Below, one piece after another: positions 46,616 through 62,076 of a stretch of 64,000 nucleotides of DNA. The stretch comes from Lophium mytilinum (taxonomy: Eukaryota > Ascomycota > Dothideomycetes > Mytilinidiales > Mytilinidiaceae), in the NCBI GenBank assembly GCA_010093605.1, contig MU004203.1, positions 512,391 through 576,390 on the forward strand, written 5' to 3'. The translations under genes were made by a program, and so were the position numbers. Within the stretch, counting starts at the first letter, position 1; each line of letters starts with the position of its first letter. Under the pieces are notes generated by a model that was given only the letters and a program-made list of their open reading frames with translations, did no database searches and was not told the origin of the DNA.

Positions 46616-48019
46616 TCAACGGATACACACCCCATCCTCGTCAAAATCGTCCAAGCCAAGCGGTTCTTCTTCGGAATCTCCTGCAACCGAATCGTCCTCG
46701 TTAGAATCTATATTTTCATCGTCGGACTGCGCTCCGTAGGATTTGTTATCATCCGAACTTTCATCGGAGTCTTCCTCTTTTGGCGGATTTAGTATCCAGT
46801 CAGAGTTTCCTTGCAGGGCTTTTCGCTGAGGCATCGCGAATTTTCCGGATGCCCTCGGATTCTCCCGAATCTTCGTTTTATAGACGTTGTAGTGGTCATG
46901 AAGAAGGACGCGATACCAGGCAGGAATGATCTCCTTTCGAATATCATTGAACGTGACCTCAGCCGCTGAAAGTCGATCCACGTCACTTGGAACGTCGAAA
47001 CAGGTGGTAAGATCTGAGTCAACTCCCTTAGTAGTACGAGGGCGACAATCGCATTCGGCTGAATCTTCACCAACGAATTCGTCTGGATCTTCATATTCCC
47101 AGCATGAGCATTCGTTGCTGTGCCCTTCTTTCACTACTTTCATTTGCACGACTGAGACATTCCAACCTTGCTCCCGAAGCTGAAAAACAACAGGTGAGAG
47201 ATTTCGAAGTTCTGGAGTGCGTGGGGTTGGCTCTACTTCCAACGTGAGGGTAATAGCCTTGCACTCTAATTCGAAGAGAGGGCTTAAGCGGAGTCTTGTT
47301 TCATCGCGCTCGATCGGCTGCTCGAAGGAAGACGACTCGAGAAAAGATTCGTAAGTGCAGAGGCGAGCACGCCTTAATTCCTTGGAAGGGCCCTCGTAAG
47401 CATTATTATCCATGGCATATTTTGCTGCATTGGCCATCCTATGATCAGATTCCACTGAGATGGAGAAGCGTCGCAAGTGACTCGATGGTAATACACCCAA
47501 TCCGAAGGGGTCTGTATGCAGATATTCGCCCAGCACTGTATACGAAGTAAATCTGAATACAACGTTGTTGTAGAATGCTTCTAGGGCCTCTCTTGCGAAA
47601 AGTCTCCCAACCCACGAGGCATACAGGTAATGCGGACGACCCATCATCTTCCTCAGATTCTGCATGCTAGGCTCGTGAAATGAGATTGTAACACAGTCCG
47701 GAAGAAGTTCTCGGTATATCATGTCGCGAACCTCACGAGGGAGAGCTGCATGCATGCTGGTTGCAAGGTCGTGGGAAGCGACGCGAGTGTAGGCGTAAGC
47801 TTGTCGTAGTAGCTTCCTATCTTCACGTAAGCGGGTGTCCATCTTGGCACGTGAAAAAGTGGCCACATACAAAGATATTGGGGCTTTCTGCTCAGAGGCT
47901 ACGCTCCTTGCAATGTCTTCGTGTCGGTCTGCTTCTTTCAAGAGCTCAGCTGCTTGATTATGAAGTTCCTGTGCCATTTCTCTCCAAGTATCCTCTCTTC
48001 GAATAGGATTAGATGCCAT
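46616..48019 (-). CDS. 2EXR/F-box-like lineage-specific protein with acidic tail
   Basis: An open frame of 467 residues. Residues 1-60 form a charged helix (EMAQELHNQAAELLKEADRH). Near residue 92, ALPREVRDMIYRELL is the signature found at the start of many filamentous-fungal proteins of the 2EXR/F-box-like group (LPxEVRxxIYxxLL), followed by LYASWVGRLFAREALEAFYN, also typical (leading to the ...ExFYxxNxF pattern). The C terminus is very acidic (EEDSDESSDDNKSY and onward). These proteins are numerous in Dothideomycetes and of unknown function. An upstream minus-strand frame at 48112-48303 may be a 5' exon, but the visible splice sites do not join it in frame, so I keep the start at 48019. Confidence 0.65.
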   Translation of the reverse strand: MASNPIRREDTWREMAQELHNQAAELLKEADRHEDIARSVASEQKAPISLYVATFSRAKMDTRLREDRKLLRQAYAYTRVASHDLATSMHAALPREVRDMIYRELLPDCVTISFHEPSMQNLRKMMGRPHYLYASWVGRLFAREALEAFYNNVVFRFTSYTVLGEYLHTDPFGLGVLPSSHLRRFSISVESDHRMANAAKYAMDNNAYEGPSKELRRARLCTYESFLESSSFEQPIERDETRLRLSPLFELECKAITLTLEVEPTPRTPELRNLSPVVFQLREQGWNVSVVQMKVVKEGHSNECSCWEYEDPDEFVGEDSAECDCRPRTTKGVDSDLTTCFDVPSDVDRLSAAEVTFNDIRKEIIPAWYRVLLHDHYNVYKTKIRENPRASGKFAMPQRKALQGNSDWILNPPKEEDSDESSDDNKSYGAQSDDENIDSNEDDSVAGDSEEEPLGLDDFDEDGVCIR

Positions 48020-48111
48020 TGCCTGAATTGGTCGTGATCAAAGTGGTGGTCGAGAACTTACATGTTTTGCGCCATACGATACTCGTCCCTGAGTCTGAAA
48101 GTCGTCAGGCT

Positions 48112-49512: not shown

Positions 49513-50739
49513 TCAACTACCCCCGCCGCTCCCTCCTTGTCCTCCACTTGCCCTACTCTTCTTCCGCGGCCCCTTCACCGCCGCCTCGCCATCATCCCGC
49601 TTCCGTTTCGGCGGCCTCGAACTCCCTCCCTTCGGCCGATAGGGCTCGTCATCCTTATTCTTCCCCCTTTTTGCGCCCGCTGCCCCTGCCTCGGGGATGT
49701 ACCCAATCTCGTCGTCCAGCGCATCTTGCTCCGTCTTCGGGCCCGGAGTGCTTGTCGACACGGCACTAGGCCGCTTCCCGCGATGCCCACCACCACCAGG
49801 TTTCGCGCTCGATTTCTCCGATGCGTTCTCGGCGTGGTGTGGGTCCTTGTCTTGCAGGAAGACCTGGGGTTGGTTCTTGCGCAGCCAGTTGTATACAGAG
49901 TCGGGGTTGCGCAGGGATAGCTCTTTGTCGGTCGGCAGCTGTGCGTGGGTGGCTAGACGGATGGGGCGGCCATCGTGGGATTGGGGATCGTAGACGGATG
50001 GATCCATGAGAGCGGCATCCGCAGCCAGCAGATATTCCTCCTCATGGTTCGGCGACAGGTATCCGGGTGCGTTCTCACCGAGGTGGAGGTCGTCGAGGCG
50101 CGCGGGGGGCTGGGAGGTGTGCGGTGTTGCTGCGGCGAGCTTGGATAGAGTGCGCGGGCCGAGGGCGAGGGTGCGCGAACTGAGGGTCGTTTCGATGCGC
50201 GCAAAGCCTTCGGGGGAGAGCTGGCCGGCAACGAGCTCTTCGCGAGCTTCGCGCAAGGCGTTTTGGATCGCGATGGGGTCCGGATCGGTGTCGGCTTCGA
50301 GGGAGGGCACGACGGATTCGCTGGGGGAGGGCGAGCGCAGGTCGAAGCGGAGGGGTCCGGGGATGCGCGCCGCGTCGTTGATGTCGAGGAGTAGGTCGAG
50401 CATTTGGCTGTAAAGAATCGTAAGTTACCTGGCAATGGGGTCTTGCGGAGAGGGAGGCGCACTCGTTCTGCTCCTGCAGCCGACGCGCCAGGGCAACAGC
50501 CTTGCACTCGTCTTTGATGAGGTTGTTGCTCAGCGTCATTTTCTCCTCAAATGCAACGCGCATTTTGCGGTATTTGCGCCTGCATTGGGTCAGTCTGGCC
50601 GTGCGCGGAGGGATGGCTGGTCGGCGCACCTGTATGATCGCTTGACGGGCGGCTTTGGTTCTGCTGCTGGTGTAGCTTCAGAGGCAGGACCCGGAGCAGC
50701 AACGGCCTGCGCCTCGAGCTGAGTCCTGATGTCGGCCAT
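49513..50739 (-). CDS. iec3: INO80 chromatin-remodelling complex subunit Iec3
   Basis: Three exons on the minus strand: 50739-50630, 50579-50463 and 50407-49513, giving 373 residues. Both joins keep frame and rebuild the Iec3 domain: SYRRKYRKMRVAFEEKMTLS, then NLIKDECKAVALARRLQEQN and DQMLDLLLDINDAAR, a conserved helical, coiled-coil-like segment (about residues 35-95). The rest is largely disordered and ends in a Gly/Lys/Arg-rich tail with PKRKRDD, suited to nuclear import. Iec3 is a fungal-specific subunit of INO80, first described in fission yeast, that helps evict and slide nucleosomes. A short inverted-repeat element (50902-51002) lies 160 bases upstream of its start codon. Confidence 0.85.
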
Positions 50740-51529: not shown

Positions 51530-52234
51530 ATGGTCCTAGACGCAAAGAACGTGCGAAGGCGGCGGTCCAGCAGTCTGGTCTACACCGAGCCCGCCGAGTC
51601 GGAGGAGCAGATCAGCGACCAGTCCGTCCTGCCCAACCTCAATGCCAACTGGGTCAATGCGAAAGGTGCGAGCGAGTCCCTACATTACAGATCCTTATAT
51701 CCCCCAACTTGCTCCATGCGCGGAAGTTACTCCGGTGTAGTGGGAAGCAAACATGCTAATATGCCGTGACATCTAGGAGCCTGGGCCATTCACGTAGTCC
51801 TCATCATTATCGCCAAGATCCTCTTTGATATCGTCCCCAGCATGTCGCAGGAAACGTCGTGGACGCTGACCAACATTTCGTACATGTTCGGCTCCTACCT
51901 CATGTTCCACTACGTGCGCGGCGTGCCTTTCGACTTCAACGCGGGTGCCTACGACAACCTCAATATGTGGGAGCAGATGGACAACGGCGACCAGTACACC
52001 CCAGCCAAGAAGTTTCTGCTGAGTGTGCCCATACTGCTGTTCCTGATCAGCACGCACTTCACCCACTACAACTTGACATACTTTGTGATTAATTTCCTAG
52101 CCACGGTGGCTGTTGTGTTACCAAAGCTACCCGCGGTAAGTTTTGCCCGACTGTATAGAATCTAAGAATCCCAAGCTAACGATGTTCGAATTTAGGCCCA
52201 CCGGCTACGAATGGGCATCTTCAACGACCGCTGA
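51530..52234 (+). CDS. ORMDL-family regulator of sphingolipid synthesis
   Basis: Three exons: 51530-51665, 51777-52135 and 52196-52234, giving 177 residues; the last exon encodes only AHRLRMGIFNDR. The family core is clear: NANWVNAKGAWAIHVVLIII across the first join, then TSWTLTNISYMFGSYLMFHY, WEQMDNGDQYTPAKKFL and HFTHYNLTYFVINF. Four membrane segments fit ORM proteins of the endoplasmic reticulum, which bind and restrain serine palmitoyltransferase. The N terminus has RRRRSSSL, matching the basic-directed serine cluster that Ypk1-type kinases phosphorylate in yeast Orm1/2 to release inhibition; this suggests the same control. Confidence 0.92.
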
Positions 52235-52884
52235 CGAACGATAGCCCCACGCGCCCCGCCTGTCCCTATTCTATATCCCGGTCTTGGCCCTTCCGCTCTC
52301 CCTCTCCTCATTTCTTGCATTGTACGCATAGCTCATAATCAAACTCAGCCCCTACGGCACGGTGTCTTTGGAAAGCAATGGGAAGTCTCTGGCATGCTAC
52401 GGCGTTGGTAACCTGTCTATCCGTTCTCCTGAGCGCGAGCGCGTCTTGTCTGTTCTACCACCCATCAAAAAAACGGTTGCGTCATTGCAGACTAAAAAAG
52501 GTGGGTATATTGTAAGAAGGCAACTCGGGTGGGTTGAGGCTATACAAAACAGTTTCTCCTCTAACTCTCTCTGTTATTTCGTGGCTTTGCATTGCCATAC
52601 TTTTGCTTCTGCTGTTTTGGTGATTCCCCAAGAATATTAACCCCTGCCCCCAGACCATGTCTTTTATATCCCCCTTCTCTCAACCTCCACTTCGGTATCC
52701 CACTATCCTGACCCTGGCATATATCTCTCAATCTTCTCGCTCTCTCCGTTATCTCGGCCCAGCACTTGCCCAGCCCCGGCACAAGGACACCAATACCACA
52801 GCTCGCCGCGCTCCCTCATTCTCGCCTATGAACACAAGGCCCCAGAACAACAGCCCTGGGAGCATATTGAATTCTTCATAATAT
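52235..52884. other. Noncoding stretch at the left edge of the small membrane-protein cluster
   Basis: About 0.65 kb after the ORMDL stop codon, with a T/C-rich 3' flank. Open frames at 52362-52640 and elsewhere have no domain. Confidence 0.45.
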
Positions 52885-53169
52885 CTACTCTAGGTAGAGC
52901 TCCAGCAACAGCAGAGCGCAGTGGTAAAACAGTACGCAAAGCAATGCCAACCTAATGCAACCTTGTATCCACCAGAGCAGAGCGAAATTGCTCGAGATGT
53001 TGAAGCGGTTCGTAATAGTGTTGTACGCGAGTGAGCAGAAGGGTATGGTGGCATCGACATTGATGGTGCCGTCCGTGTGTCGTGGTTCAACATTTCTGAA
53101 AGGAAAGGGGAAGAGGCGGGCGAGGACGCTGTCGGGGCGTTGGAAGTAGGTTAGGGTTATTTCTGTCAT
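52885..53169 (-). CDS. Small membrane protein A, 94 residues
   Basis: I start at the ATG at 53169 (MTEITLTYFQ); the open frame continues upstream but is not protein-like. Residues 1-68 hold a polar, Thr/Asn-rich region with two possible N-glycosylation sites (NRFNIS and nearby). Residues about 71-90 are a membrane helix (CIRLALLCVLFYHCALLLLE). The tail is four residues long. No family recognised. The start and the spacing of hydrophobic residues recall the protein at 58808-59209 (MTTVTLAYTL), so the two may be distant relatives. It is the first of seven minus-strand small genes in a row. Confidence 0.5.
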   Translation of the reverse strand: MTEITLTYFQRPDSVLARLFPFPFRNVEPRHTDGTINVDATIPFCSLAYNTITNRFNISSNFALLWWIQGCIRLALLCVLFYHCALLLLELYLE

Positions 53170-53484
53170 GTTGAGCTGGTGGTGGAAGATGGGAAGGATG
53201 TTGAAGGAGGATTGGAGACCGCGGAGGCTGGGGGAGGACGAGAAACTGTATATGCGTGTGGGTAACAGTGGGCGGAACCGTAGCTTCGTGGCTGTGGCTT
53301 CGGGCAGATCCGTGGATGGTTGGTTGTCTACAAAGGGCGAGCCAATAGTAAAGCGGGAACCAATCAAAAGGCAAGTCTTGAATTCATGCCGAATCAGTCT
53401 ATTATTATATCTGGCTATGCTGATTCATGATGCCAGTCGAGTCTCGATCCGTCTGAGTGGAGAAGCGTTTCTAGCTCTTCGCGA

Positions 53485-53610
53485 CTGATTGGAGTGGTGT
53501 ACCCCCATAAGTTTCCAAAATCTAGGCGCGATGTCAAGTTCCAGGCAGTGCAAATCAGACTGCAATTCAACTGACTGCCTAGTAACTGCCTAGATTGTTC
53601 TTCTCAGTGG
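53485..53610 (+). mobile_element. Short inverted-repeat element (MITE-like), copy in the small-gene cluster
   Basis: About 125 bases aligned with the intron copy at 5681-5805 in the same orientation. Shared words include GCGATGTCAA, GGCAGTGCAAATCAGACTGC, and AACTGACTGCCTAG, and the right end is TTCTCAGTGG. The left end is eroded, so it is approximate. It lies just downstream of small membrane gene B and upstream of A. Confidence 0.6.
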
Positions 53611-53662
53611 TGTGAAGTGAGCGAGATCGAAGCCAAACAGGACCAAGTCCGTCACCCCAACT

Positions 53663-54121
53663 CTACGTTTTATAAACTGGCGGCATATCCTCCTCGTAAA
53701 CCGGAAGCTCGCTGTCCCTCCCCTGTGAACTCGTCGCCTGTACCACTTTCTCCCTCGAACTCGTTGCTGGCGTCTCTTCACGAATCTCCTCTCTCAAATG
53801 CGCCTCCTGTGGTTGCTGTAGTACCTGTACTTGCGGCGGCGGCGGTACCTCTGTCTGCTCCAGTGCCTCCATTTGCTGAGAGAGCATTTCCACCAGCGGC
53901 CTGTTTCTGACACCGCGCTCATAGCCAAACTCGTGATACAGCTCCTGGGCTTGTCGTTTCGTTTTGGCTACTTCTTTGCGTCGGATGAGGACGCATTTCA
54001 GAAAACAGATGCAAATAACAGCCGTGGTCAAGGCGGAGAAGACGATGATGGCGATGACGCCGTCGTGCCGGCTGGTTGGGGGGCCGGTACCGCCGTAAAT
54101 AGGATGGGACGAGGTGGGCAT
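53663..54121 (-). CDS. Small single-pass membrane protein B with two C-terminal PY motifs
   Basis: A single exon of 152 residues with no signal peptide. Residues 1-21 are short and polar; 22-46 form one membrane helix (VIAIIVFSALTTAVICICFL and onward), immediately followed by RRKEVAKTKR, which should hold the tail in the cytosol. The tail contains RPLVEML (74-80), a Pro/Gln stretch, an acidic helix, and ends with LPVY (139-142) and PPVY (147-150). PPxY and LPxY motifs are ligands of WW domains, as in Rsp5/NEDD4 ligases. No database family comes to mind. Protein D (55884-56402) shares the plan and the RPLxEML word. Confidence 0.65.
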   Translation of the reverse strand: MPTSSHPIYGGTGPPTSRHDGVIAIIVFSALTTAVICICFLKCVLIRRKEVAKTKRQAQELYHEFGYERGVRNRPLVEMLSQQMEALEQTEVPPPPQVQVLQQPQEAHLREEIREETPATSSREKVVQATSSQGRDSELPVYEEDMPPVYKT

Positions 54122-54798
54122 GGTGGGCTTCGGGAGGATACGTGTGGAGATAAGAATTGGTGAATGAGGGAGATGGCGAAGACGAGAGTGGTGTGTGTGG
54201 GGTGCGCTTGAGTCGAGAGTAGCAGTAGTATCTGATTCCGGCTGATGTGGTCTAGAGAGCTATCGGCGTTGTCAAAACCGTCGGCATTGGAGAACTCCAG
54301 GCGTTGCTAGGCAAGTATACATGGGCCAAGAGCAAGTGCTTTGCTAAAGTATAAACTATGCAGGTGCAACTGTAAAACAACACATATTTGTGGACTGCCA
54401 CCTGTTATTTAGGAGAGCCGAGTTGTACCGTGGTACTGCTTGGTGCTGGAACGAGTATGCGGCTATGCTCCACAGATCAATAGGATAGTAAGCAAAACTG
54501 TTTTCTATGATCCCTGCTCATTTATTTGCGGATGCCTATGTCCTTTTACTCTACTCATGAGATATAATTCCGTAGATAATGCTTGTGCGCTTGGACCCGG
54601 CGGGAACTACGTTCCCATGAGGACAGTCGACTCTGCAGAGTCCCTGCAACTTCAGCATGAATTCATCGCACAACTCGCATCGTTATAGCCTAATCGCTAG
54701 ACCTCAGCATTACTAACTATCCCAATGAAACAGGCGGGCATCGCTCACCAATGCCTCCCTTCGAACTCCTCCAAGTCCCCGAGCGTTACTCAAACTTG
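54122..54798. other. Noncoding spacer between small genes B and C
   Basis: About 0.68 kb holding the promoter of B (read to the left) and the 3' flank of C. A plus-strand frame at 54440-54688 has no domain. No repeat was found. Confidence 0.45.
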
Positions 54799-55362
54799 CT
54801 AGAACGGCAGCCTACTCATATTATACAACCTCTCATCCTCCTCATCTCTGTCCCGCGCATCACTATTCCCTCCCCTTAGAGCTCTCTCAACCTCCCTTTC
54901 CCTGTCCCTGCCCAATGTAACCCTCATTAACCTAACCCTCTCTACCGCATCCCCGCCCCTTACACGCGCCTCCTCCGGTGCCGCTAATTCTTCCAGCGTC
55001 ATATCATCACTCAGCCTGTTCACATCCCTCTTTCTCTTTGTGAACCCTTTCTCTACATCCAGTCCGCTCTGTTTGTGGCTTTCCCTGGCTTTGCGGCGGC
55101 GGCGTCGGCTGCACATACAATCGATGATGCAGGTTGAAATCCCAGCGAAGACGCAAAAAGCGACAATGTAGACCCAGACGGCCGATGGGGTTTTCAGCCA
55201 GGCGTAGTGGCTTGCGGTTGGCGTGACGTACTGGGCATGAGCGTCGAAGGTTGGGGTGGGAGCTGGGATGACGGTGCCCGTGAAAGTCGAATACTTGGTC
55301 TCCACGAAAGCTAGGGGAGGAGAGCCTACGCTGGAGGGGAGGGCGGGCGATACGGTCGTCAT
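54799..55362 (-). CDS. Small single-pass membrane protein C, 187 residues
   Basis: Single exon from the ATG at 55362 (MTTVSPALPS). Residues 1-58 are Pro/Thr/Ser-rich and likely outside the membrane. Residues 61-82 form one membrane helix (AVWVYIVAFCVFAGISTCII), followed by DCMCSRRRRRK, whose Cys residues beside the membrane could be palmitoylated and whose Arg cluster places the tail in the cytosol. The tail is charged, with EELAA (124-128), a word also in D (123-127), and ends DERLYNMSRLPF without a PPxY motif. No family recognised. Same strand and plan as B, D, E and F. Confidence 0.6.
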   Translation of the reverse strand: MTTVSPALPSSVGSPPLAFVETKYSTFTGTVIPAPTPTFDAHAQYVTPTASHYAWLKTPSAVWVYIVAFCVFAGISTCIIDCMCSRRRRRKARESHKQSGLDVEKGFTKRKRDVNRLSDDMTLEELAAPEEARVRGGDAVERVRLMRVTLGRDREREVERALRGGNSDARDRDEEDERLYNMSRLPF

Positions 55363-55883
55363 CTTGATGATGTGGTATGTTGGTTCAAGAGCTTGTGTTG
55401 GTAGTGGTGTGTGGGAGTTGTAAGTGTTGTTGGAGAAATAGTTTGGAATGGAGGGGAAGAGGGTGTGATTTATAGGGCTTCTGGTGAGTGTAAGAGGGTT
55501 GGAATCACCGTTCCGATGAATTGAGATGCTCGGGAACCATGGATCCGCGAGAGAGAGCACCATGTCTCAACAAATCCGTTTCCTCACACATCAGCTTTTC
55601 TCGAACCAATCGGATGGTGTGTGCATCGAATTTCAGATCTATCTTCGCTGTCTTATAGCCAGTTGATGATCCTTATCTGTGGCTGTCGTCTCGTGGTCAC
55701 GGCTAACAGAGGTGAACCTAGACCTGTCGTGGTATCATTCCAATTCCTCAAGCTACGGAATCGTCGACTCGACACCTTTCCATTCAGCGGAATCTTCAAT
55801 TTCAAGCCCACCCCTCCAGAAGTGTACCAAGTAAGAGTAACCAAAAGCATCAGCTACCGGTCTGCCTGGCCATCGCGCTAGGT
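55363..55883. other. Noncoding spacer between small genes C and D
   Basis: About 0.52 kb containing the promoter and CA-rich leader of C on the minus strand. No other feature was seen. Confidence 0.45.
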
Positions 55884-56402
55884 TTAAGAAATGGACTGTC
55901 TATGCTCCCTATACGAAGGCGGACGCTCCTGCTCTCTGCTCCCCTCTTCTCCCGCCTCGGCTTCTGAAGGATCTTGCTCCATCACAAGCATCTCCTCCAA
56001 TGGCCGCGGAGCCTGCGGTACCGCAGCTAGTTCTTCCATCCTAACAGGTGAGGGAATCCCATTCCCTCCCTCGGTTTGCTCGCGCTGTCTTCTCTGCGCT
56101 CTAACCCTCCCCTGTCGCTTTACGTGTCGTACCCACACAGAGATCCCAAAGCCGCATGACACACAAGCAACAACAAGCAATACCGCGCTGGGGGCCGCGA
56201 GGGCAGCAGAAAGTAATACGACGTGTCCGGCTGCCCACGACGACTTCTGGGCCGAGATTGGAGGCGGAGGTAAAAGGGGAGGTTTGGATGCCATTGGTGG
56301 TGGGAACGAGAGGACGGGTGGTGGTGAGCTCTCGGGTGGTGGAGGATAGTATTCAGGGTTGTCCGACTCCGGAGGATAGTCGCGGGCAATTCCAATGTCC
56401 AT
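55884..56402 (-). CDS. Small single-pass membrane protein D with C-terminal PPSY motif
   Basis: Single exon from the ATG at 56402 (MDIGIARDYPP), 172 residues. Residues 9-50 are extremely proline-rich (PPPPESSPPP, PPLLPPPP). One long hydrophobic segment at about 59-90 is the membrane helix, followed by RHVKRQGRVRAQRRQR. The tail has EELAA (123-127), RPLEEML (133-139), an acidic helix, and PPSY (161-164) eight residues from the end. The RPLxEML word and terminal PY motif are shared with B, and EELAA with C, so B, C and D look like old tandem paralogues. Function unknown; a link to WW-domain ubiquitin ligases is inference from the motif. Confidence 0.65.
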   Translation of the reverse strand: MDIGIARDYPPESDNPEYYPPPPESSPPPVLSFPPPMASKPPLLPPPPISAQKSSWAAGHVVLLSAALAAPSAVLLVVACVSCGFGISVWVRHVKRQGRVRAQRRQREQTEGGNGIPSPVRMEELAAVPQAPRPLEEMLVMEQDPSEAEAGEEGSREQERPPSYREHRQSIS

Positions 56403-56957
56403 AGTAGTGTCTGGGAATAGTTTGACAGTGGCACGTTTCGAATCTAGTAGCTCGGTGTTGGAGATGGCTGGAGTGTGGAGGGATATGTGATGATGGATTG
56501 TGGCAGAGAGGAGAAGAGGGCGGCAAGGTAGGCGTTTAAAAAATAAAAAGGGAGGGATGGCAGTGTGCGAGGCGTTGGTGCCTTGGTTGCGAAGATGGCC
56601 ATGGGTTTCGAGAGCGTATGGGGAAGAGGTTGGCCCATGTTTCGCTCGAATGAAGGACCAAGGCGTCCATATCGAGCAACCAAGGTGCAGTTGACCTATC
56701 AAAGGCAGGTATATCAATTTCTAAGGCTACATTCCCAATTCCATATCTTCTACCCCCCATTATTTCGTTCTGGTCGTCGTTTTCTCTTCTTTTCCCACAA
56801 AGTCTACGTCTACTATTGACAGCGTTCTTTCTAGAGATTGACGCTTCCCACTCGGCGATCCAAAATATTGTTGTTGGTGCGGCAAATTATTAGAGCCTTA
56901 TTGTACTTAGCGATCTAGTCACGGAAATGTTGCTTGGGAGCGCTCAAAGCACTTGTC
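56403..56957. other. Noncoding spacer between small genes D and E
   Basis: About 0.56 kb holding the promoter of D and the 3' flank of E. Open frames are short and domain-free. Confidence 0.45.
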
Positions 56958-57281
56958 TTAGAGCGGATAAGTCGGCAAACACCTCTCCACCTCTTTCTCC
57001 TTCCTCCTCATCAAGCACTTTAGCGGAATGGTCGGAAATCCGGACTGGTGCTCATACCCCTTAGCCCTTTCCTCGTCTTTCACGCGCTTGTGAATTTTCC
57101 GGCGGCGGACACAGAAGAAGACAGCGACAGTAGCGCCGATGATGGCGATAAGGATGCTAATTAAGAGTAAAATCATCCCGGGATTGACTAGGAAGAGGAA
57201 CCTGTTGTCGGCGAGTGTCTTTTCATGGCGAACAGGTAGTTCGGGCTCGTGTAGGACGGGGAGGAAGTCTGTCCGGGCCAT
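56958..57281 (-). CDS. Small single-pass membrane protein E with terminal LPTY motif
   Basis: Single exon, 107 residues, from the ATG at 57281 (MARTDFLPVL). Residues 1-33 are polar; 34-58 form one membrane helix (GMILLLISILIAIIGATVAV and onward); then FCVRRRKIHKR gives a basic stop-transfer. The 45-residue tail is rich in Lys, Arg and Glu and ends ERCLPTYPL, with LPTY at 102-105. Much shorter than B-D but the same plan. No family recognised. Confidence 0.55.
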   Translation of the reverse strand: MARTDFLPVLHEPELPVRHEKTLADNRFLFLVNPGMILLLISILIAIIGATVAVFFCVRRRKIHKRVKDEERAKGYEHQSGFPTIPLKCLMRRKEKEVERCLPTYPL

Positions 57282-57928
57282 TTTGGCTTTCAGTGTGGGT
57301 AAGTGGTCGATTTGAGGCTGAGAGAGTCTTTGTGAGAGGATTGCACTTTTAACTGCGACTTTGCTGCTGGAGAAGTTTGAGAAATGTGTGTGTTCCAGTC
57401 TGCAGAGGGCAGCGATTCAAGATATATAAACTATCTGCGGCATCATAGCCCAACTTGGGGCTGGTATCATGATTTTCATCATGATTCGTGGCGGCTCTGA
57501 GCCTTTGGTCACCACGTATACAGAGTAGCAGAACCGTGGTTGAGTATCGTGTATTCGCTTAAAAAGCGCACATAACGGAATGGCAATGAGAAATTCAATT
57601 AAAATAGAGTAGTGAGTAGTTTCGAGGCTTTTTCGATTTTGGGTTCGATTCGACAAATCCATATTCCCTCATCGCTCCTGTTTTCTTGCTTTCTCGAAAA
57701 TCAACCTAAGCTAGCGTACGTACATCAATCATATCCAAGCAACACCTCACCCTTTTCCATTTGGTAGGCAGCGAGGACAATGTTCCGGCGTAGATTCCAA
57801 CACAGAGGCGTTTAGCCATGATTCAGCAGGTGGAAGCTTTGCGTTAATACGTGATTCGCCGGCTGGAAACGTTAGCGATGAGTTCACAGCTCAGCCGTAC
57901 TTGGGATGTTTACGCTTATTTGATGGTA
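57282..57928. other. Noncoding spacer between small genes E and F
   Basis: About 0.65 kb with the promoter of E and the 3' flank of F. A minus-strand frame at 57417-57662 has no domain. Confidence 0.45.
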
Positions 57929-58219
57929 TTATGGCTTGTATGCCGCTGGCGGAGGCGCTGCTGATCCAGCGCCCTGCAGCCCGATGGTGTTGGTTCCTTT
58001 GTCGGCTTCCTGGGTCTCTTCGTGGGCTTCTTCGATGCCTTCGGGCACTCGCTCTTCATCCTGCGTATTCTGGGAACGTACGTTTCGTAAACGACGACGA
58101 GAGCGGCTTATCGCGGTGCGGATGACGAAGATCAAGCTGCCGGTGAGGAAAAAACCGAAAATGACAGAGAGAGCGACCCCGGCGCTTTTGAGGTCGTCGA
58201 TTGCGCCGCTGAGCGTCAT
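57929..58219 (-). CDS. Small single-pass membrane protein F, Pro-Tyr rich C terminus
   Basis: Single exon, 96 residues, from the ATG at 58219 (MTLSGAIDDL). Residues 1-13 are polar; 14-33 form one membrane helix (GVALSVIFGFFLTGSLIFVI), followed by RTAISRSRRRLR. The tail is acidic (about residues 54-74) and ends APPPAAYKP, a spaced Pro-Tyr word that resembles but is not an exact PPxY. Same strand and plan as B-E. No family recognised. Confidence 0.55.
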   Translation of the reverse strand: MTLSGAIDDLKSAGVALSVIFGFFLTGSLIFVIRTAISRSRRRLRNVRSQNTQDEERVPEGIEEAHEETQEADKGTNTIGLQGAGSAAPPPAAYKP

Positions 58220-58807
58220 ATTGGTATTCTGGAGGTGGTGATAGGTTGTGAGAGGTAGTCGAAAGCGTTGTAGTAAGTTTGAGCGAGGTAAGAAGGGAAG
58301 AGCGTTGAGGTAATTGAATATGATGGAGACGTGGAAGGTAAGATGTGTGGCAGATATAGAGGAAGCAGACACACTTTGAACAGCTTATGATTCTCTGACC
58401 GACGTATGCTCTAGTCGATGAAACATGGTACAGCAGCCGTACCGGATGCCACCATCCAGGTTAGCTCAGCGAACGGGCTGGGAACGTGATTCACTTCCGA
58501 ATCATCATAACCAGATTCGCGTCTTCCCATACTTCATGCCCGAGCCACACTTTCACGCCACACTGAAGCATCTCAAGCAATGGCAGGAAAGCGGCAAAGT
58601 TTAACAGAGTGCGCTACAAACTCGACTCTTCCTCAATGTCTTCTTGTCATGTAGCTCATTCGCGGAGAGGTGCCCGTGCCGTCCAAATCCAGGCTTCAAA
58701 TCCGCTGATGATCCTGTCTTCTTTCCAACACTCTTGCTTCTCCAGCGCGTCCTCAAGCTCTTCATTGTACTGCTATCCAGCTACAGTGTAAGTTGCCTGA
58801 GGTCGTG
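58220..58807. other. Noncoding spacer between small genes F and G
   Basis: About 0.59 kb. At 58565-58583 the sequence GCATCTCAAGCAATGG resembles the right end of the 125-base inverted-repeat element, but no left end could be paired with it. Confidence 0.4.
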
Positions 58808-59209
58808 CTAAAGTGGCGCTAGAAACCACTCGACCATCCAGCAAAACCACTCCCATATCGTACCCGGCAGATCTGCAATGCCCATGAACAGGATGAATCC
58901 AAGTAGTTGGCGTCTCAGAGCCGGCAAGCGATGCGTATTATCCAGGATGAATGCTCGTGTGTAGAGTTGGATATCGTTCCCCTGAATGATGGCCCATGCT
59001 AAGGCGCCGGTAAATATATACACTTGATACACTCTATCCCAGGTTATCCAATTAAAGGAAAAGAACTCGCCAAACATGTCGCAGACTGTTTCGACTCGTA
59101 AAGGCAGCGTGACGGAGAGAGACACCTCGAGGGGGGGGTTTTGGTCGAGACGTCGGATGAGGCGTCGAATGAAGTTGGGTAGCGTGTATGCGAGAGTAAC
59201 GGTAGTCAT
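58808..59209 (-). CDS. Small membrane protein G, 133 residues
   Basis: Single exon from the ATG at 59209 (MTTVTLAYTL). The N-terminal 50 residues contain two Arg-rich helical turns (FIRRLIRRL). Hydrophobic segments at about 60-77, 102-118 and 119-133 suggest two or three membrane helices, with a Trp-rich end (IWEWFCWMVEWFLAPL). No PY motif. Its start resembles that of A (MTEITLTYFQ). It lies at the right end of the minus-strand run. No family recognised. Confidence 0.45.
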   Translation of the reverse strand: MTTVTLAYTLPNFIRRLIRRLDQNPPLEVSLSVTLPLRVETVCDMFGEFFSFNWITWDRVYQVYIFTGALAWAIIQGNDIQLYTRAFILDNTHRLPALRRQLLGFILFMGIADLPGTIWEWFCWMVEWFLAPL

Positions 59210-60263
59210 TCTTGATCTGCTATGAATAGCTGGGGAGTGGCTTGAAAATACTCGAATGGACAAAATGTGTGTATGAGATGGGACCGGCTTGATATCGATG
59301 GTCGGCCGGACAAAACGGATGACTGAGTGAGATGTAGAGATGTTTGGATGGGGACCATGAAATGGATTGAGAAGAAGGTACCGTATACCTAGGGACACGC
59401 GTGGAAAGCAATCGCACCTGAGTACTGTACAGCGCCAGGAAAGTGCGGTGTGCGCTTTCTTGCGACTGCCATAGATGGGCACCTCAACCCATTCTGGGAG
59501 GCCCCCAGTTCGTTATCCATAATCGCCGGTAAAGCTCCCGAGTCACTTTAAGCAACCGGATGGGAGACTTTACCCATCTGGGCCAGTGATGTCTGCCAAA
59601 CGTAACTTTGTCGCGAAAAGGCCGAGATAGACATCTCCCTGCGACTACCGCCGTTGCCTCAGCATGATTTTAGTGAAGCGAAAGGGGTATAGGTGCATAG
59701 CTATGAAAGCTCTTTGGGTTTGCTCAGCTGTCTCAAACAATGTCGTTTGAAAAGTGAACCGATTTGCACTTCAGTTCCGTATGCCCGTGGCACATCTTGA
59801 GGCGTAGGACTCTTTTTAGGTTTATTCTAACCAGTTTAGGGCATCAGTTCAGGTACACCTTCTTCCCACCGTCTAGACTACTTCAGCCCTCTCTCAAATA
59901 TACGATCGAGAAGGGGAGCTCATCACTCTTTAGGTCTGGTATGCTCTAGAACCCTCCAGGGACATAGTTGCTCGTTTGATTTGAGATAATTTTCACGAAC
60001 ATCGAAGTCCGGAACACCGCAAGGTCTAGGAAGTATACATATCGGTATTGTATCCATATTACTTACCGGTAATGCACCTCTGTACCCATGGGTCACTGAC
60101 AATAGTGTCGCCACGAACCAGACTTTACGAAACTTATCTGAGTCATCCAAATATAGATACCTTGTAAAACGCACCTGTTTCTCCCATCACGACATCTGCC
60201 ATCTCTGAAATCCATAACTGTCCACACACAACAGCCCAAACGAGATACCCCCAAAAGCCCAAA
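59210..60263. other. Noncoding stretch between small genes G and H
   Basis: About 1.05 kb between divergent small genes, so it should hold both promoters. Short open frames show no domains. Confidence 0.45.
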
Positions 60264-60536
60264 ATGCCAGCAGCCCCGGAAGGTTTCGGCGAGCCTCGAA
60301 CTGAAACCGAACGCCAACATCAAGAAGAACGCATACGCCGAGCAGAACACCTCCACCAAGCTCAACTCCAAGAACAGGGGCGGTACGTGCCAATCCTATG
60401 TGCAAAATTACTCGCACTCGCCTTTCTTGTAGGCGGTTTTTGCGGACTCGTCGAAGGGTTTGTCGCCTACTTGTTTGGCAGCAACGACAACACTCGTATA
60501 CCAGCAACAATGTGGAAATCGAAAGAGACGTGGTAG
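60264..60536 (+). CDS. Small membrane protein H, 90 residues, plus strand
   Basis: Single exon from the ATG at 60264. Residues 1-40 form a highly charged helix rich in Glu, Gln and Arg (TERQHQEERIRRAEHLHQAQ). Residues about 44-70 are hydrophobic (PILCAKLLALAFLVGGFCGL and onward) and form one membrane helix or a hairpin. The tail is short and polar. The topology is the reverse of B-F, with the charged part at the N terminus. No family recognised; it is the only plus-strand member of this run of small genes. Confidence 0.45.
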   Translation: MPAAPEGFGEPRTETERQHQEERIRRAEHLHQAQLQEQGRYVPILCAKLLALAFLVGGFCGLVEGFVAYLFGSNDNTRIPATMWKSKETW

Positions 60537-61119
60537 GTTGGACGAGCTCAGAAGGAGATAGGCTGCGAAGCCTCGATTGCTATATCTCGGGGCTAGATTG
60601 CGGGTCATATGGTAGCAAGGCTATTGGAAGAAGACGTACCAAAAACCGGGCGAGATTGGAAGTCACCAAAGTCATTCACTATGATTTGCATTTCAATTTA
60701 TCGTTGGCTTACGGAGCTGCTGTAAAATAGCCACGTGAATGTACAGATCTGAACTTCAAACAGCGCCGCGAAAGTGGAGAAGCGATGTGAATAATGATGT
60801 TGATTGCGTATAGTAAAGGATGATCACGCACTCCTCGATCGCAGCTACAGCATAGGCGAGGACACAAGGGACGGTGGTATGAGTATGGCGCCGTCTCGCT
60901 ACCGCGTGTCTGGATCTCGATGGGGGTATACAGCTTGACGATCTTCGGGTCTGCTGCGCATTATGAAGCGAACATGCGGAGTCTTGGGGTTTGTTCAGAG
61001 GTTCTTGACGACGATAGACTCAAAAACTTCATGCCGATTAATATGACAGACGAAGGTAGTATTACACGTTCGAATGTTCATTCCCAACATATCCGTCCTC
61101 TCTCTTACGAAGCAGACGG
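60537..61119. other. Noncoding stretch
   Basis: About 0.58 kb between the small gene H and the 3' end of the PAN-domain gene. Nothing was recognised. Confidence 0.45.
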
Positions 61120-62076
61120 CTACGCTCCAGCAACCGGCGTAAGCTTCACGTTATCAATCCAGGTATCCTTCTGGTTTCCCACGTCCTGTGCAAAGCTAAT
61201 CGTAAATCTCACAATCCCCGTCGAGTACTGCGCGCCCGCCGGCACCGCAAAATCGCTCCCCGTAAACGTTACCATCATATCTGAAGTCCACCCTGTCACT
61301 GGAACTGCCGCGACTTGTACCGCTGCATTAGGTCCAGCGCCCAGGAAAGCTTTGACGCTGGACTGCCCACTGTAGAGATTGCGCCGCGCGGTAAAAGACA
61401 GCCGGTACATTGTCCCCGGGCACAATATCAAAGACTGCACGAAGGTCTGATCTAAGTTGGGGTTCGTGTTGTCGATGCGCCCCCGGATCACCCATGCTTT
61501 GTCGCTGCCTTTGTAGCTGCTACCAAGGTATGCGCGCTCGACGTAGCCGTCGGTGCCGCCGGGGAGAGGCATCCAGGGGGCCATGCCGCTTTCGAAGGAG
61601 CCATTGACAATGGGGTCGGTGGTTGTTGGGCAGGCGGCGGTCGTCGTAGTTACAGAGCTAACGGTGAGGGTGGACGTGGCTGTGGTAGGGGAGCACGCGG
61701 GCAGATCGGTGCTGGAAGAGGTTGATTCGGGCACGAGGACAGCGTCGCAGGTCCCTTCCTCAGCGAAGGGCACACCCATGCTTTTCTTGAGGTAGCACAC
61801 TTGACCTCCGGTGTAGGCGAGATTGACACAGGCTGGGTCGGCTGCGCATGCTGCAACGCACTCGGTGAAGCTGAGGTCCCAGATGGGGCCACCGAGGTTG
61901 TTGGTGGATTTGACGACGTCGGTGGAGATAAGGAATTTCTTCCCTTCGGTCATGTAGGTAGAGCCATCTGCATAGCCATGGCAACTAGAAGAATCGCGTC
62001 TGGAGAGAGGCCCAAGTGCAAATGCGCTGGAGAAAGAGAGGAAGATCGCTGTAGCGAACGTGAATTTGGATAACAT
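61120..62076 (-). CDS. Secreted protein with PAN/apple-like and carbohydrate-binding-like domains
   Basis: Single exon, 318 residues. The signal peptide is clear (MLSKFTFATAIFLSFSSAFA), followed by a dibasic RR. Residues about 32-110 form a Cys-rich PAN/apple-like module (FTECVAACAADPACVNLAYT and CYLKKSMGVPFAEEGTC). A Ser/Thr-rich linker (about 115-152) is likely O-glycosylated. Residues about 155-318 begin NGSFESGMAPWMPLPGG, as in CBM4/9-type or related beta-sandwich domains. Such two-module secreted proteins are common in filamentous fungi and may bind cell-wall or host glycans. Function beyond binding is not evident. Confidence 0.75.
   Translation of the reverse strand: MLSKFTFATAIFLSFSSAFALGPLSRRDSSSCHGYADGSTYMTEGKKFLISTDVVKSTNNLGGPIWDLSFTECVAACAADPACVNLAYTGGQVCYLKKSMGVPFAEEGTCDAVLVPESTSSSTDLPACSPTTATSTLTVSSVTTTTAACPTTTDPIVNGSFESGMAPWMPLPGGTDGYVERAYLGSSYKGSDKAWVIRGRIDNTNPNLDQTFVQSLILCPGTMYRLSFTARRNLYSGQSSVKAFLGAGPNAAVQVAAVPVTGWTSDMMVTFTGSDFAVPAGAQYSTGIVRFTISFAQDVGNQKDTWIDNVKLTPVAGA

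Follow-up and report, generated by a model that had tools for sequence, protein, structure and literature searches.

In a 64,000-nucleotide stretch of contig MU004203.1 of the ascomycete Lophium mytilinum (hereafter the window), eight small open reading frames (ORFs), named g1 to g8 in window order, lie in a row. Five of them, g2 to g6, encode predicted single-pass membrane proteins of one common plan, and three of the five tails carry a C-terminal L/PPxY (PY) motif: g2 (LPVY and PPVY), g4 (PPSY) and g5 (LPTY). We tentatively read g2 to g6 as a diverged set of single-pass adaptors of an Rsp5-type ubiquitin ligase that would work like the Rcr and Commissureless (Comm) proteins. We give this reading not quite an even chance, and we infer ligase binding, adaptor function and cargo choice.

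The common plan, already recognized in an earlier note on this DNA for the frames between 53663 and 58219, comprises one hydrophobic stretch, a basic cluster and a tail, and is present in five of five. The 15 residues following the hydrophobic stretch contain 7-8 Lys or Arg (net charge +5 to +7), whereas the 15 residues preceding it contain 1-3. Because the basic residues are concentrated after the helix, the positive-inside rule predicts that the tail of g2 to g6 is probably cytosolic, with the N terminus on the outer or lumenal side. A short N terminus, thought by the earlier note to belong to the plan, was found in three proteins (11, 20 and 27 residues before the helix), the remaining two having 53 and 57 residues. 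The absence of a signal peptide was borne out in so far as no KD19 value above 1.6 occurred away from the hydrophobic stretch in g2 to g6, every fourth window being listed and no dedicated predictor being run. The AlphaFold2 prediction for g2, made with the five-row alignment (mean predicted local distance difference test (pLDDT) 61.4, predicted template modelling score (pTM) 0.29), shows a helix at residues 17-64 that covers the membrane segment and is confident at 21-50 (block means 89-95). The blocks that follow residue 60 are at 42-61, a weak second helix is seen at 74-88, and the PY motifs lie in the low-confidence tail. Genes g1, g7 and g8 are built differently.

The PY motifs, overlooked in the earlier note, are concentrated in this set. 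Among the 176 ORFs of the window that begin with ATG and have at least 60 residues, three have [LP]PxY in their last 20 residues and all three belong to the five genes. Three random draws of the 176 would all land in the set with a chance of 1.1e-5, a figure that, like those from the shuffles, is optimistic because the motif was spotted and then tested, and ORFs that share a window do not count as independent. When the last 20 residues of each of the five tails were shuffled, at least three tails were positive in 7e-5 of 200,000 trials, and none of the trials reached the observed four motifs; with whole tails shuffled, the figure was 4e-5 of 50,000 trials. The 19 longer ORFs of the window (6958 residues) contain no [LP]PxY. 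In a MAFFT alignment the C-terminal Tyr occupies one column in all five proteins. A further similarity, RPLxEML ahead of the PY motif in the tails of g2 and g4, was spotted by eye; as a shared tail motif it was discarded, the similarity of the two tails not rising above shuffles (p 0.13-0.17).

PY motifs bind the WW domains of Nedd4/Rsp5 ubiquitin ligases, of which HulA is the Aspergillus member, and it is on this binding that the adaptor reading is based. The genes for yeast Rcr1 and Rcr2 are a dispersed pair, unlike the five in a row seen here, and the single helix of these proteins has its basic side toward the tail, as is the case in five of five proteins here. The Rsp5 adaptor Bsd2 has several helices, in contrast to one in each of the five. 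Comm, the PRRG proteins and Rcr1/Rcr2 have been grouped as short membrane proteins with PY tails (PMC5578492). Within this group, Rcr1 and Rcr2 carry PPSY and VPEY and have a Comm-like overall structure (PMC5578492), a layout common to the five proteins here, with L/PPxY in three. As for a PY motif in the C-terminal tail, which marks the Rcr proteins, L/PPxY is present in g2, g4 and g5 and absent from g3 and g6 (three of five), and the RCR profile was not among the matches listed for our proteins. Drosophila Comm and the vertebrate PRRG proteins are likewise short, span the membrane and have tails with LPxY and PPxY (PMC5578492). Comm is without a signal sequence (PMC5578492), and none is evident in g2 to g6. 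A Cys that Comm, PRRG3 and PRRG4 have close to where their helix ends on the cytosolic side (PMC5578492) is also found in g2, g3 and g5 (three of five), and the order of the motifs in PRRG proteins, PPxY after LPxY (PMC5578492), is the same in g2. Differences from Comm and PRRG are the fungal host and the absence of a Gla or any other Pfam domain above cut-off. Finally, Ear1/Ssh4, Bsd2 and Tre1/2 are PY-motif adaptors in membranes that recruit Rsp5 to its cargo (PMC2810449), a role that the proteins here may share; Ear1/Ssh4 have a SPRY domain (PMC2810449), for which no match was listed here.

In the mechanism that we propose, the L/PPxY tails would dock to the WW domains of a fungal Nedd4/Rsp5-type ubiquitin ligase. 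The helix or the outer segment would select a membrane cargo and the tail would recruit the ligase, upon which cargo and adaptor would be ubiquitinated and sorted to the vacuole; differing N termini would then give differing cargo preferences. There is precedent for such binding in Rcr1, which binds Rsp5 via its PY motifs (PMC5578492), and the known membrane adaptors of Rsp5 include Bsd2, Tre1/2, Ear1, Ssh4 and possibly Rcr1/2 (PMC2810449). The earlier note had instead suggested a tandem array on which diversifying pressure acts, such as a system of surface recognition or signalling; allorecognition would be one example. A row of diverged one-helix genes would suit such a system, whereas segments before the helix of only 11-57 residues, with no Pfam domain above cut-off, would not, and we regard it as improbable. 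Since the only recurrent specific motif that we found sits in the predicted cytosolic tail, sorting or ligase binding inside the cell is preferred over recognition outside it.

Whether the five genes form a family was addressed by aligning all 28 protein pairs against block shuffles (blocks of 8 and 12). The pairs g2/g3 (z 3.7-3.9 over 147 alignment columns) and g3/g5 (z 3.0-3.6 over 57 columns) exceed the shuffles. The level of p 0.05 was also reached by g1/g2 (z 3.0-3.1, a hydrophobic match of 13 residues) and g7/g8 (z 2.2), neither of which fits a five-gene family. Two more pairs, g3/g4 (p 0.047) and g4/g5 (p 0.013), pass when the shuffle is coarser; both fail under block shuffles. On these alignments g2, g3 and g5 plausibly share an ancestor; one common to all five is conjectural. 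The tandem array claimed in the earlier note thus receives modest support from two pairs over long alignments, weakened by the two ill-fitting pairs and by the repeats: direct and inverted repeats, looked for as traces of recent duplication, were only 20-26 bases long at 71-81% identity, and recent duplication was rejected. Words of 6-8 bases that the 450 bases upstream of the seven minus-strand genes g1 to g7 share, examined as possible promoter elements, were no commoner than in random segments.

The same data bear on a different explanation, namely that the eight are unrelated lineage-specific genes (orphans, partly of de novo origin) that have become neighbours by chance in a stretch without larger genes, the PY motifs being coincidental or acting separately in each. 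It takes little for a one-helix protein with a basic cluster to arise, and the scarcity of pairs that exceed block shuffles over long alignments (two of 28), the two pairs that pass p 0.05 outside any five-gene family, the short repeats, the unremarkable upstream words and the other plans of g1, g7 and g8 are all in line with this explanation. Less readily accommodated are the single plan of five same-strand neighbours, the g2/g3 alignment, and the location of every C-terminal PY ORF of the window within the five. We consider unrelated orphan genes somewhat unlikely and retain the adaptor reading.

A further possibility is that these are stretches of spacer DNA left open by chance. Between 52181 and 60760 there are 11 ATG ORFs of at least 90 residues, compared to a mean of 3.74 in Markov simulations (maximum 9 in 500), and seven of these have KD19 above 1.9, i.e. 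a strongly hydrophobic 19-residue window, compared to a mean of 0.10 (maximum 2 in 500). In a harsher control, the remaining 55 kb of the window also yielded seven ATG ORFs of 90-260 residues with KD19 above 1.9. One of these is ORMDL, one lies at the window edge (63423) and five overlap longer frames and probably owe their existence to chance; 7 of the 14 window ORFs with a strong hydrophobic segment fall in the 8.6 kb of the array. At position -3 an A is present in all eight starts picked in the earlier note, and in seven of eight under a mechanical first-ATG rule, the exception being g3, where an earlier ATG has G at -3. In the region's other three ORFs of at least 90 residues this position is G, C and G (A in none of three), and across the window A is found there in 57 of 180 first-ATG ORFs (180 rather than the 176 of the motif count, as ORFs of 59 residues are taken in).

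Codon usage was evaluated with a model trained on stretches of the 19 longer ORFs, 17 of which have at least one Pfam match above cut-off; 46616-48037 has no Pfam match and 61120-62076 has a sub-threshold one. The model is weak, with 4 of the 19 training ORFs scoring below zero in a leave-one-out test. For all small ORFs except g8 (seven of eight), the own frame scores best of the six, whereas the own frame is best in 11.6% of 1154 Markov ORFs, so that the probability of at least seven of eight is 2e-6. Six of the eight outscore 99% of Markov ORFs, equally high scores being obtained by 14% for g4 and 4% for g8. Separation is weaker against wrong-frame ORFs of real genes, where g1 to g8 reach percentiles of 95, 92, 91, 73, 97, 98, 88 and 83, and 92, 80, 81, 39, 92, 91, 77 and 33 by synonymous choice alone. 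Both sets of percentiles, together with the overlapping hydrophobic ORFs elsewhere in the window, argue for chance ORFs. Set against the start contexts, the own-frame result and the scores relative to Markov ORFs, they leave that explanation very improbable. On the basis of these sequence properties, g1, g2, g3, g5, g6 and g7 are likely to be genes, g4 is a probable gene (start context, hydrophobic segment and PY motif argue for it) and the status of g8 is uncertain. Antisense to g4, at 55891-56349 on the plus strand, lies an ORF of 152 residues with a codon score of -0.072 (g4, -0.083), G at -3 and KD19 of 1.26. Upstream of g3, an in-frame extension at 55363-55563 (minus strand) scores as coding (0.035, versus -0.125 in the best other frame); g3 may therefore start from the ATG at 55563 and be 254 residues long.

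Searches of protein families agree with the earlier note in that none of the eight reaches the curated cut-off of any Pfam or NCBIfam model. The Pfam RCR profile (PF12273) was absent among the matches listed for all eight proteins at expectation values (E) up to 10, a profile for which there was no positive control, and no SPRY or Gla domain was listed by Pfam for any of the eight. A search of the PDB with g1 and g7 only gave no credible match. Several weaker hits were considered and rejected. A Pfam Bcl-2 match to residues 37-80 of g7 (E 0.0073, 17.3 bits, cut-off 31.4) is probably due to chance: no Bcl-2 chain was found in the PDB at E up to 10, and the structure model (mean pLDDT 45) was unusable. 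Bcl-2 proteins are not known from fungi of this kind. Three matches of g5, to NCBIfam DsbI (E 0.00015, 21.2 bits, cut-off 212), NCBIfam BC85_0335 (E 0.00078, 19.1 bits, cut-off 65) and Pfam MHYT (E 0.014), are below cut-off and cover the membrane segment, as does the match of g6 to FAM176 (E 0.023); that of g4 to Dendrin (E 0.02) is below cut-off as well, and so are some still weaker matches. To gauge the noise, we searched ten long frames presumed spurious, not matched to the small proteins in hydrophobic content, with an E limit of 0.1. One of them turned out to be a real exon (Ino80_Iec3, E 7.5e-14), and the other nine gave one match at E 0.099 and none below 0.01. Genes hidden in the spacers were sought by six-frame Pfam scans of 52166-61119 at E up to 1, which returned a single weak match (BRCA2DBD_OB2, E 0.08). 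Prokaryotic genome contigs, scanned once with g2, yielded no relatives, as expected for a fungal gene. We found no account of a fungal array of this kind in the literature, as judged by titles and abstract openings in a partial collection.

Several observations weigh against the interpretation of g2 to g6 as ligase adaptors. L/PPxY is missing from two of the five tails (g3 and g6), and a wider pattern admitting VPxY, as in Rcr1/2, added no further tails among the five. Correcting for about 300 noticeable motif classes, a number that we estimated, turns the 7e-5 of the tail shuffle into about 0.02. The motif-bearing g4 has a weak codon score that is matched by its antisense ORF. When the first 15 or 25 residues of the tails were removed, only one of ten tail pairs was still similar, g3/g5, and this via 13 charged residues. 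No search connected the proteins with a known adaptor by profile or sequence, be it Pfam and NCBIfam for all eight or the PDB for g1 and g7 only. Moreover, PY motifs do not fix function: the activity of Rcr1 in chitin deposition does not need Rsp5, control of Robo by Comm at the midline does not need Nedd4 binding, and the yeast Rcr genes failed to act like PRRG4 in a fly assay (PMC5578492). Comm-like proteins have remarkably low conservation outside their motifs (PMC5578492), and family searches could therefore miss them.

The coordinates and features of the individual frames are collected in Table 1. All eight are present as the earlier note had listed them, with seven on the minus strand, and its spacers of 0.5-1.1 kb correspond to 493 to 1054 bases. 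Of its length range of 94-187 residues the upper end stands and the lower end is corrected by g8 to give 90-187, and of the membrane helices that it saw in all eight, seven remain, g7 being the exception.

Table 1. The eight small frames in window order; "the five" are g2 to g6
Frame	Position	Strand	Residues	Hydrophobic segment and plan	Tail end and PY motif	Remarks
g1	52885-53169	-	94	hydrophobic C-terminal segment, about residues 56-89; plan unlike the five	no PY motif	A at -3 of the first ATG of its frame, where it starts; score equalled by 0.1% of Markov ORFs
g2	53663-54121	-	152	one helix, basic cluster	LPVYEEDMPPVYKT, two PY motifs	
g3	54799-55362	-	187 (254 from ATG at 55563)	one helix, basic cluster, charged tail	no PY motif	
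g4	55884-56402	-	172	proline-rich N terminus, one long hydrophobic segment, basic cluster	RPPSYREHRQSIS, PY motif	weak codon score
g5	56958-57281	-	107	one helix, basic cluster	CLPTYPL, PY motif	
g6	57929-58219	-	96	one helix, basic cluster	PPPAAYKP, Tyr aligned, L/PPxY absent	
g7	58808-59209	-	133	KD19 maximum 1.40, no clear membrane helix; plan unlike the five		
g8	60264-60536	+	90	charged N terminus, one hydrophobic segment in C-terminal half; plan unlike the five		weakest coding evidence

The run is located between an ORMDL gene (profile match E 3.2e-44) and a minus-strand gene at 61120-62076 with a sub-threshold PAN_4 match (E 0.00086). Other genes of the window encode sedolisin-type and S10 peptidases, an aspartyl protease, an Iec3-like protein and MRP-S28, and together with ORMDL they suggest a filamentous ascomycete. 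The Iec3-like gene includes the frame that emerged as a real exon from the noise control, 50075-50677 (minus strand), at first judged spurious; the next frame, 49513-50424, matches a later part of the Ino80_Iec3 profile. The two frames are one Iec3 gene, probably with an intron. The frames flanking the five-gene set, g1 and g7, share the start MT(E/T)(I/V)TL(T/A)Y, and their alignment does not go beyond shuffles (p 0.1 was not reached).

Which transporters are kept at the cell surface depends in part on membrane adaptors of Rsp5/Nedd4 (PMC2810449). If the adaptor reading of g2 to g6 is correct, five candidates in a row, three of them with the motif, would suggest that filamentous fungi are able to expand this adaptor layer locally. 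The combination of one helix, a basic cluster and a C-terminal PY motif offers a simple search rule for finding further candidates among unannotated small proteins. A bolder version, which we consider clearly unlikely, is a dedicated locus of tandem single-pass ligase adaptors that would have expanded and diverged in the manner of a receptor array, every adaptor having a distinct outer or membrane segment and hence a distinct cargo. Were it true, such a locus would give the fungus a modular, fast-evolving route to change which transporters leave its surface.

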